Origin: Desulfovibrionaceae bacterium
GTDB lineage: Bacteria; Desulfobacterota; Desulfovibrionia; Desulfovibrionales; Desulfovibrionaceae
Direction: 5' to 3'
NCBI GenBank assembly: GCA_029008115.1
Contig: JAQXJC010000044.1
Span: 1 to 64,000 of the forward strand
Length of the DNA stretch: 64,000 nucleotides
Below the pieces are notes generated by a model, which saw only the letters and a program-made list of their open reading frames with translations, made no database searches and had not been told where the DNA came from. Both the position numbers and the translations under genes were made by a program. Position 1 is the first letter of the stretch. Each line of letters begins with the position of its first letter. Shown one piece after another: positions 13,072 to 15,219 of the stretch.

Positions 13072-13899
13072 TTACTTCCGGTAGCTGAACCAGTAGGCCA
13101 TGCCCACAAAGGCGCCCCCGCCCACAATATTGCCCAGAGTGACGGGCAGGAGATTCTTCAGGAAGAAGGATGCCCAGGTAAGATTGCCCAGCGCACCGGC
13201 GTCCAGACCGGAGGCGGCGGCCCAGAGCGGATTGGCCTTGGCGAACAGGCCGGCGCTGATATAGTACATATTGGCCACGGAATGCTCGAAGCCGGAGGTG
13301 ATGAACAGCCAGATGGGGAAGAAGATGGCGAAGCACTTGCTGACGATGTCCCTGGATCCATAGGCCATCCACACGGCGAGGCAGACCAGCCAGTTGCACA
13401 TGATGCCAAGATAGAAGGCGGACAGGAAGGGCAGAGAGGTCTTGCCCGCGGCAATGCGGATGGTCATGCCGCCCAGCAGATGCGCCCCGGAATTGAACAG
13501 GCCGGATTCCGTCATCATGTGCGCGATGAGCAGCGCGCCCACAAAGTTGCCGGCGTAGACAAGGCCCCAGTTGCGCAGAGCCTGCGCCAGCGTGAGGCGC
13601 TTTTCCGCCACACCCATGAGCATGAGCGTATTTCCCGTGAACAGCTCGCCGCCGGCAATGACAACCAGCATCAGGCCGGTGGGGAACACGGCCCCGGCAA
13701 GGGCCTTGCCCAGGCCGTAGGTGGAGGGTTCGGCAAGAAGATTGAAGGCGGCCATATTGGAACCTTCGGAAGCGAACGCGATGAAGGCGCCTGCCAGAAT
13801 GGCCAGCACGAAGGAACGGGCCGCGGGCATGGCGGCTTTTTTAATGCCGGTTTCCACAGTGGCGGCACATATTTCCGCCGGTGCGAGGTAGTTGGACAT
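13072..13899 (-). CDS. focA: Formate/nitrite transporter (FocA/NirC family)
   Basis: A six-helix pentameric anion channel of 275 residues. Family marks are AFNLLAE and the omega-loop region, PTGLMLVVIAGGELFTGNTL in helix 2, and SGFEHSVANMYYI in helix 5, whose histidine is the central gate residue of FocA. It probably moves formate (or nitrite or hydrosulfide, which relatives also carry) across the inner membrane. The start is ATG 13899, preceded by GGGGGAG; the frame continues upstream without a better site. It is divergent from the riboswitch-controlled terC gene. The choice among anions is not decidable from sequence alone. Confidence 0.88.
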   Translation of the reverse strand: MSNYLAPAEICAATVETGIKKAAMPAARSFVLAILAGAFIAFASEGSNMAAFNLLAEPSTYGLGKALAGAVFPTGLMLVVIAGGELFTGNTLMLMGVAEKRLTLAQALRNWGLVYAGNFVGALLIAHMMTESGLFNSGAHLLGGMTIRIAAGKTSLPFLSAFYLGIMCNWLVCLAVWMAYGSRDIVSKCFAIFFPIWLFITSGFEHSVANMYYISAGLFAKANPLWAAASGLDAGALGNLTWASFFLKNLLPVTLGNIVGGGAFVGMAYWFSYRK

Positions 13900-14076
13900 G
13901 GCTCCCCCTGGTTGCGGTTTGTGAGCGGAGCAGCGCCCCCCGCGGGGTGCTGAAAAACCTCTATAGCAGGCTTCAGGGAAAATGGGAATATTGGGGCATG
14001 TCCCTATGCACGGCATGGCTGGTGGTCATGAGGGCTTGACCTTCATGCGGATATGGAATAGCGTAGCCCCATTGTG

Positions 14077-14202
14077 CTAAGGGGAGTAGCTGGGGCCTTG
14101 AGCCCTTGGCCGCGTCAACAGCATGGCCTGTGAGCCTGGTGCGGCCGCCAGAATATTTCCTGCGCCGGGAACGGACAGGATATGCTGGCAAGTGAGACCT
14201 TC
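14077..14202 (+). promoter_or_regulatory. yybP-ykoY (Mn2+) riboswitch
   Basis: Several conserved blocks of this aptamer occur in order: AAGGGGAGTAGC (14079-14090), CGTCAACA (14113-14120), GGCCTGTGAGCCTGG (14125-14139) and a GCAAG..GACCTT end (14189-14201) whose CCTT can pair with the first AAGG to close P1. The class binds Mn2+ and commonly controls TerC/Alx-family genes, which is exactly the gene 64 bases downstream. I matched it by eye, so boundaries may shift by about ten bases. Confidence 0.82.
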
Positions 14203-14231
14203 ACGACGGAACAGCGTCGGGGAGGTCTTTT
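14195..14231 (+). terminator. Riboswitch-controlled intrinsic terminator
   Basis: AGACCT (14195-14200) pairs with AGGTCT (14223-14228), with an inner CGACG/CGTCG stem (14204-14208 with 14215-14219), followed by TTTT. The first arm is also the 3' strand of the riboswitch P1 helix. The two folds exclude each other: ligand-stabilised P1 would prevent the terminator, giving an ON switch for the downstream gene. Confidence 0.75.
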
Positions 14232-14265
14232 GTATTTCTCCGGCGGAACATCCAAAGGAGAACAC

Positions 14266-15219
14266 ATGTTTGCACAGCATTCACTGACAGAAGTCCTTAT
14301 CTTTTTCGTACTGGTTGCCGCCTGCCTGTGGTGCGACCTGCACGCCCACCGCTCGGACAAGCCTGTTTCCGCCCGCGATGCCGCCCTGTGGACCTGCGTC
14401 TGGGTGGGGCTGGCCATGGGCTTCGCCGCATACATCGGCATCAGCTTCGGTGCGGAGCAGGCGCAGCTCTTCATCGCCGGCTATCTGCTGGAAGAATCCC
14501 TTTCCATTGACAATCTCTTTGTGATGATGGCCATTTTCGCGTCCTTTTCAGTCAGGGACGCCATGCAGCACCGCGTGCTGTACTACGGCATTCTGGGCGC
14601 GCTGGTGATGCGCTTCCTCTTTGTCGCCGCAGGCAGCTCGCTGGTGGCCGCCTTCGGGCCCTATGCGCTGGCCGGCTTCGGGCTGTTCGTATTGTGGACG
14701 GCCTGGAAGATGTGGCAGGCCATGCGCGGCGGCCGGCAGGAGGAAGTGGAGGATTTCACCCATCACTGGGCTGTGCGCCACGTGCGCCGCATCGTGCCCG
14801 TGCATACGCAGATGAGCGGCCACGACTTTTTTGTGAAGGTGGAGGAGGGCGGCCGCCATGTGTGGAAGGCCACGCCGCTCTTTCTCTGTCTGGTGGTGGT
14901 GGAACTTTCGGACGTGATGTTCGCCTTTGACTCCGTGCCCGCCATCATCGCCATCACGCAGGACCCCTTTCTTGTATACACCAGCAACATCTTTGCCATT
15001 CTCGGCCTGCGCTCCATGTACTTCCTGCTGGCGGCGGCCAAGCGCTACCTGCGCCATCTGGAAAAGGCCGTCATTGCCATTCTGGCCTTCATTGGCGTGA
15101 AGATGCTGCTTGCCGTTCTTGGCATCGTGCATCTGCCGGCCATGGCCAGTCTGGCCGTGGTGGCCGGCCTGCTGGCGCTGGGCATTCTGGCCTCCTGCCT
15201 GCCGGAACGGCGGGCCTAG
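14266..15219 (+). CDS. TerC/Alx-family integral membrane protein (probable Mn2+ exporter)
   Basis: A 317-residue polytopic protein of the TerC superfamily. The two repeated acidic motifs that form the metal path are present: LLEESLSIDNLFVMM (helix 3) and VVELSDVMFAFDSVPA (helix 6 region). About eight to nine transmembrane segments flank a charged cytoplasmic loop (about residues 155-200). Alx and other TerC relatives export Mn2+. The Mn2+ riboswitch upstream with a terminator strongly supports that role here. The start is ATG 14266, with AAAGGAG upstream. The gene stands alone with a GC-rich hairpin after it. Confidence 0.9.
   Translation: MFAQHSLTEVLIFFVLVAACLWCDLHAHRSDKPVSARDAALWTCVWVGLAMGFAAYIGISFGAEQAQLFIAGYLLEESLSIDNLFVMMAIFASFSVRDAMQHRVLYYGILGALVMRFLFVAAGSSLVAAFGPYALAGFGLFVLWTAWKMWQAMRGGRQEEVEDFTHHWAVRHVRRIVPVHTQMSGHDFFVKVEEGGRHVWKATPLFLCLVVVELSDVMFAFDSVPAIIAITQDPFLVYTSNIFAILGLRSMYFLLAAAKRYLRHLEKAVIAILAFIGVKMLLAVLGIVHLPAMASLAVVAGLLALGILASCLPERRA

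Follow-up and report, generated by a model that had tools for sequence, protein, structure and literature searches.

A probable yybP-ykoY-type Mn2+ riboswitch upstream of a Desulfovibrionaceae terC/alx gene with a predicted expression platform coupling termination to ribosome-site masking

The closest described relatives of the leader analyzed here are Mn2+ riboswitches of the yybP-ykoY class (RF00080). The L. lactis yybP element is of the transcriptional type and combines a four-way junction and L1 and L3 motifs with a P1.1 switch helix that shares a strand with an intrinsic terminator, giving an ON response to ligand; the roles in this class of the A-minor adenosine of L1 and the Mn2+-contacting adenosine of L3 have been described (PMC6754395). 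The E. coli alx and mntP riboswitches act on translation, with mntP also involving Rho (PMC11647493). Dual transcription/translation platforms were described by Barrick and Breaker in 2007, who predicted that one switch acts on both steps (PMC2258182), and terminators are combined with translation control in the B. thuringiensis Bc1 c-di-GMP riboswitch, reported to be incoherent with two terminators (PMC11218506), and in the antisense-controlled pT181 attenuator, where the terminator itself masks the ribosome site (PMC5435934). Within a 64,000-nucleotide stretch of Desulfovibrionaceae DNA (the window), the leader of a terC/alx gene resembles the L. lactis type in the structural features named above and in a predicted ON response, and shares with the E. 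coli switches the aptamer class, a TerC target (alx) and predicted translation-level control. It departs from the L. lactis type in falling under the Rfam cut-off, in a P1.2 helix that can be A-U paired, and in an extra arm, segment D, that would tie the terminator to the Shine-Dalgarno sequence. Whereas E. coli alx and mntP act on translation, one strand would here be contested by an intrinsic terminator and by a distinct mask over the ribosome site, and in contrast to dual platforms with the ribosome site inside the 3′ side of the terminator, two separate hairpins would be joined by a chain of strand exchanges. A search of open-licence literature found no described Desulfovibrio Mn2+ switch and, for the yybP-ykoY class, no account of a layout in which a terminator and a distinct mask over the ribosome site have a strand in common. 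The aptamer with its antitermination platform is a new member of an already known class, and the coupling of terminator to ribosome-site mask appears to be a new variant.

The gene behind the aptamer (14266..15219, plus strand, ATG at 14266) encodes a 317-aa protein that exceeds the profile cut-offs for TerC/Alx membrane proteins, scoring 156.3 bits against PF03741 (TerC) and 368 bits against TIGR03718 R_switched_Alx (cut-off 246.4), and is thus of the Mn2+-homeostasis type expected downstream of RF00080. The Shine-Dalgarno sequence AAAGGAG (14254-14260) lies five bases before this ATG; an alternative start codon at 14182 in the list of open reading frames falls inside aptamer helix P4 and was rejected, as the ribosome site and the relatives favor 14266. 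A likely promoter at 14036..14064 on the plus strand (TTGACC at 14036-14041, a 17-nt spacer and TAGCGT at 14059-14064) agrees in position with clear TTGACA/TATAAT-like promoters directly 5′ of the aptamer in relatives; its −10 element is poor, and a consensus promoter scan of the window did not report it. The divergent neighbor on the minus strand (13072-13899) is a formate/nitrite transporter gene (PF01226, 274 bits) whose product is FocA-like yet scores under the FocA equivalog cut-off. TerC proteins are reported to mediate Mn2+ efflux in E. coli and Vibrio and the metalation of exported enzymes in Bacillus, and because their role is debated, an earlier note on this DNA overreached in tying the protein directly to Mn2+ export. 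A function as Mn2+ exporter is plausible here, and the terC product is likely to reduce the Mn2+ content of the cell or shift its distribution.

The Mn2+ aptamer occupies 14079..14201 on the plus strand and is predicted to fold as a four-way junction of P1.1 (14079-14082, AAGG, with 14198-14201, CCTT), P1.2 (14089-14090 with 14192-14193), P2 (14092-14096 with 14102-14106), P3.1 (14108-14114 with 14140-14146), P3.2 (around 14125-14136) and P4 (14147-14151 with 14185-14189). Covariation bears out this hallmark architecture: across 11 aligned leaders the six helices are paired in 98% of cells, 16 of the 27 pairs have changed on both sides, none of 500 shuffles did as well, and a control in which helix partners were slid by 1-3 columns reduced pairing to 28-42%. 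P1.2 covaries as GUAGC with GCAAG and GUAAC with GUGAG, through a G-U intermediate found in the window, giving G-C, G-U and A-U pairs overall. The other hallmark of RF00080, an L1 of the form GGGGAGUA with an A-minor adenosine and an L3 with an Mn2+-contacting adenosine, is likewise present, and both residues are invariant in relatives. The L1 5′ strand GGAGTA (14083..14088) is identical in all 11 leaders and supplies A14085, equivalent to A10 of L. lactis. L3, a predicted metal-binding loop (UCAACAGCAU, 14115..14124), was set in register with the Rfam consensus UCAACAUACU and the published structure, and its A14120 corresponds to A48 of X. oryzae and A41 of L. lactis, which contact Mn2+ there. 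A 4-nt insertion in L1 (GCAAGUGAGACC) was considered and rejected, since the relatives show an extended P4 instead, with L1 reading AGUGAGACC and P1.2 covarying.

Standard annotation passes over this element. Scanning the entire window at curated Rfam thresholds gave no match, and a permissive leader scan placed RF00080 at 14069-14189 with 24.4 bits (E 5.9e-5), the top RF00080 match genome-wide yet under the gathering threshold of 45 bits, which is a curation cut-off and not a structural feature. The earlier note had named such a sub-threshold covariance score as one outcome that would count against a yybP-ykoY assignment, and nominally it does, yet the E value and the covariation support the element and overturn its dismissal on the empty threshold scan. 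The low score reflects poor coverage of the clade by the Rfam model, not absence of the element: in a direct test 0 of 40 related leaders reached the threshold, so it fails the whole clade and not the window alone. At E 0.01, RF00080 retrieved 14 of 99 family genomes, one of them over threshold. A model of aptamer and terminator sequence from the 11 aligned leaders, the window among them (R1), matched 104 of 288 family genomes and 19 of 44 genera, as well as genomes of a second family of the order; most matches in other genomes are independent of the training set, and the window's own 115.5 bits (E 8.7e-29) is that of a training member. TerC homologues within Desulfovibrionaceae carry a related leader, including those of Candidatus Bilophila, Mailhella and Avidesulfovibrio. 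The clade is nearly invisible to standard annotation, and the leader, judged by its structure, very likely represents a divergent Desulfovibrionales branch of the yybP-ykoY class despite its Rfam score. Mn2+ as the ligand and the ON direction are carried over from the known class by analogy. With the RF00080 match, TIGR03718 assignment, covariation and R1 in agreement, the central proposal of the earlier note, a predicted Mn2+ riboswitch whose ON-type antitermination platform precedes a TerC gene, is well supported.

The aptamer overlaps a putative intrinsic terminator in the manner that defines antitermination. Segment B (AGACCTTCACGACG, 14195..14208, plus strand) contains the P1 3′ strand and serves as the terminator 5′ arm, segment C (CGTCGGGGAGGTCT, 14215..14228) forms the 3′ arm and carries a Shine-Dalgarno-like GGAGG, and the stem is followed by a U-tract (TTTT at 14228..14231, then GTATTT) that is weak in the window and longer in relatives. 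As the earlier note had recognized, AGACCT at 14195-14200 belongs both to the aptamer 3′ closing region around P1.1 and to the 14195-14208/14215-14228 stem, making the two helices mutually exclusive; the shared strand runs over 14195-14201, and both the P1/terminator overlap and the U-tract are kept in relatives. A consensus terminator scan of the window flagged the P3/P4 region only and did not report the terminator at 14195-14231, which has a mismatch in its stem and a short T-run. We infer that transcription terminates at this stem-loop.

Side-by-side reading of the relatives uncovered a further kept arm directly 3′ of the U-tract, segment D (14234..14245), which is able to form 12 bp with C (14215-14226) or, through 14236-14241, to pair with segment E (14257..14262), the Shine-Dalgarno GGAG plus AA. 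In the window, C:D comprises 12 contiguous pairs including G-U, with a duplex energy of −17.9 kcal/mol where shuffled sequences average −10.7 (p 0.01). Of 25 TerC leaders examined, 23 have a C:D duplex stronger than shuffles at p ≤ 0.05; among 26 leaders of the large genus g40, which stand before Na/Ca-exchanger genes, there is none, so D is no automatic companion of a terminator. Variable C/D positions pair with the D of their own leader in 53 of 56 cases (permutation mean 46.6, maximum 52). D:E joins UUCUCC at 14236-14241 to GGAGAA at 14257-14262 (6 bp), and the calculated cost of opening the ribosome site in the window is 7.7 kcal/mol without C and 1.0 with C free, a height reached by 0 of 60 shuffles; the corresponding means are 6.8 and 3.4 kcal/mol in TerC leaders and 3.5 and 4.7 in g40 leaders. 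D:E is leader-specific among TerC leaders (p 0.00025). When 40 leaders retained after thinning were compared, none of 10,000 permutations equaled the own pairings for B:C, C:D or D:E, and the control pairings C:E and B:D gave p 0.20 and 0.83; all these permutation p-values are optimistic because the relatives are not independent.

Given C:D, a degree of D:E complementarity follows automatically from the Shine-Dalgarno core; in several leaders (L139, L132, L188 and L190) the complementarity reaches past GGAG. The layout becomes more explicit in distant genera and the second family, where C reads CTGGAGGTC, D reads GACCTCCAGC and E can repeat either the CTGGAGG of C or CCGGAGGTT; several leaders there precede Tim44-TerC operons. 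Many of the TerC and Tim44-TerC leaders in the two families carry both C:D and D:E pairings, both are lacking in the g40 leaders, and D is absent from the sister genome G026. Two other roles for D were rejected: a second terminator would call for a T-run, which does not follow D, and a terminator for an opposite-strand gene does not fit the divergent orientation of the neighbor at 13072-13899. The antitermination platform of the earlier note stands but is incomplete, as competition of the terminator 3′ arm and the Shine-Dalgarno region for D predicts translational control as well, and the feature, placed by that note at 14077-14231, should extend from about 14074 to 14268 to take in the downstream arm and ribosome site.

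Folding calculations bear on the predicted switch in different ways. When the window leader was folded as a growing chain with P1 formed, C:D reached 0.79-1.00 until ~25 nt of coding sequence had emerged, and with the terminator formed D:E approached 1.00 once E was out. At full equilibrium aptamer P1 and C:D were both absent from the unforced fold, and enforcing the aptamer still left D:E dominant (0.98) because coding sequence at 14286-14297 pairs upstream; the terminator 3′ region (14221-14233) can pair with this early terC segment and shift the equilibrium toward masking of the ribosome site. In relatives, P1 formation often leaves the upper part of the terminator stem intact, which restricts C:D at equilibrium; the median difference across TerC leaders is just 1.2 kcal/mol. 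Plain equilibrium folding was set aside as proof of switching, since its outcome varies with the amount of coding sequence included. The surviving upper stem and the equilibrium preference for D:E make the coupling dependent on folding order; for the hallmark of a dual platform, a ribosome site masked when the terminator forms, leader-specific pairing and growing-chain folds agree and equilibrium folds are ambiguous.

We favor, with somewhat more confidence than doubt, an Mn2+-activated yybP-ykoY riboswitch with a coupled two-level expression platform built as a chain of five segments: A (the P1 5′ strand, AAGG), B (at once P1 3′ strand and 5′ arm of the terminator), C (the terminator 3′ arm resembling a Shine-Dalgarno sequence), D (an anti-Shine-Dalgarno arm after the U-tract) and E (the real Shine-Dalgarno sequence). 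With Mn2+ bound, A:B would hold and block the terminator, C would capture D during transcription, and E would be left free, so that terC is both transcribed and translated. Without Mn2+, B:C would form and transcription would terminate, and in any read-through RNA the occupied C would leave D to pair with E and mask the ribosome site. Comparative sequence analysis supports the aptamer fold, the conflict of A:B with B:C and the leader specificity of both C:D and D:E, and D's choice between C and E is presumed to track the state of the aptamer. That control is exerted jointly on transcription and translation seems to us somewhat more probable than not.

Much of the doubt concerns whether the ribosome site is regulated at all. 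In a transcription-only Mn2+ riboswitch D would be a by-product, for example a coincidental complementarity or a hairpin around the U-tract that stabilizes the mRNA, as befits the known class mechanism in L. lactis, the g40 leaders that work without D and the lack of a clean ribosome-site switch in equilibrium folds. Such a reading would leave unexplained the leader-specific D:E pairing among TerC leaders and in the wider thinned set, its extension beyond the GGAG core in the four leaders named above, and the repetition of the sequence of C in E in distant genera; we consider it unlikely, though a serious contender.

The opposite emphasis, an inefficient terminator-like hairpin with ribosome-site masking by D as the main output, draws on the weak U-tract of the window (CTTTTGTATTT) and on leader L194, which has lost the U-tract and in which B, C, D and the Shine-Dalgarno segment remain complementary, but a strong U-tract adjoins the stem in most relatives and renders such a translation-dominated switch improbable. 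Least probable of all is that the fold is kept but in this genome responds to a different ion or no longer senses one: the sub-threshold Rfam score and the window's departures from its relatives in P4 length and promoter quality point that way, whereas the L1 and L3 metal-site residues are invariant and TerC and Na/Ca-exchanger targets fit Mn2+ homeostasis.

Related aptamers also stand before other genes. In many Desulfovibrionaceae, Mn2+-type aptamers precede Na/Ca-exchanger family genes (PF01699; L154-L179, L184, L185 and L188), and the g40 leaders of this kind have a terminator and no D arm. Tim44-like (PF04280) and TerC genes lie together behind the same riboswitch at L182, L183, L186, L187, L201 and L218, with the most explicit C, D and E repeats. 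At L210 and L213, both in the second family, a CNNM/CorC-type transporter gene (PF01595) is found ~1-1.8 kb downstream of Mn2+-type aptamers. L194, in genome G015, is possibly a purely translational version.

Across the Desulfovibrionales, the balance of evidence tilts toward a family-wide device whose single metal-ion aptamer governs a chain of four alternative helices (A:B, B:C, C:D and D:E) and so sets termination and masking together, with C as a Shine-Dalgarno mimic that would unmask the ribosome site only if the terminator is open. These findings add to the known range of Mn2+ riboswitches a clade for which Rfam returns almost nothing, and offer a testable example of a riboswitch that may couple termination and translation by strand exchange between two hairpins. 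If true, this arrangement would explain a tight OFF state despite a leaky terminator and provide a natural design for low-leak RNA switches. In sulfate reducers, the findings also bring TerC, Tim44-TerC and Na/Ca-exchanger genes under predicted Mn2+ control.
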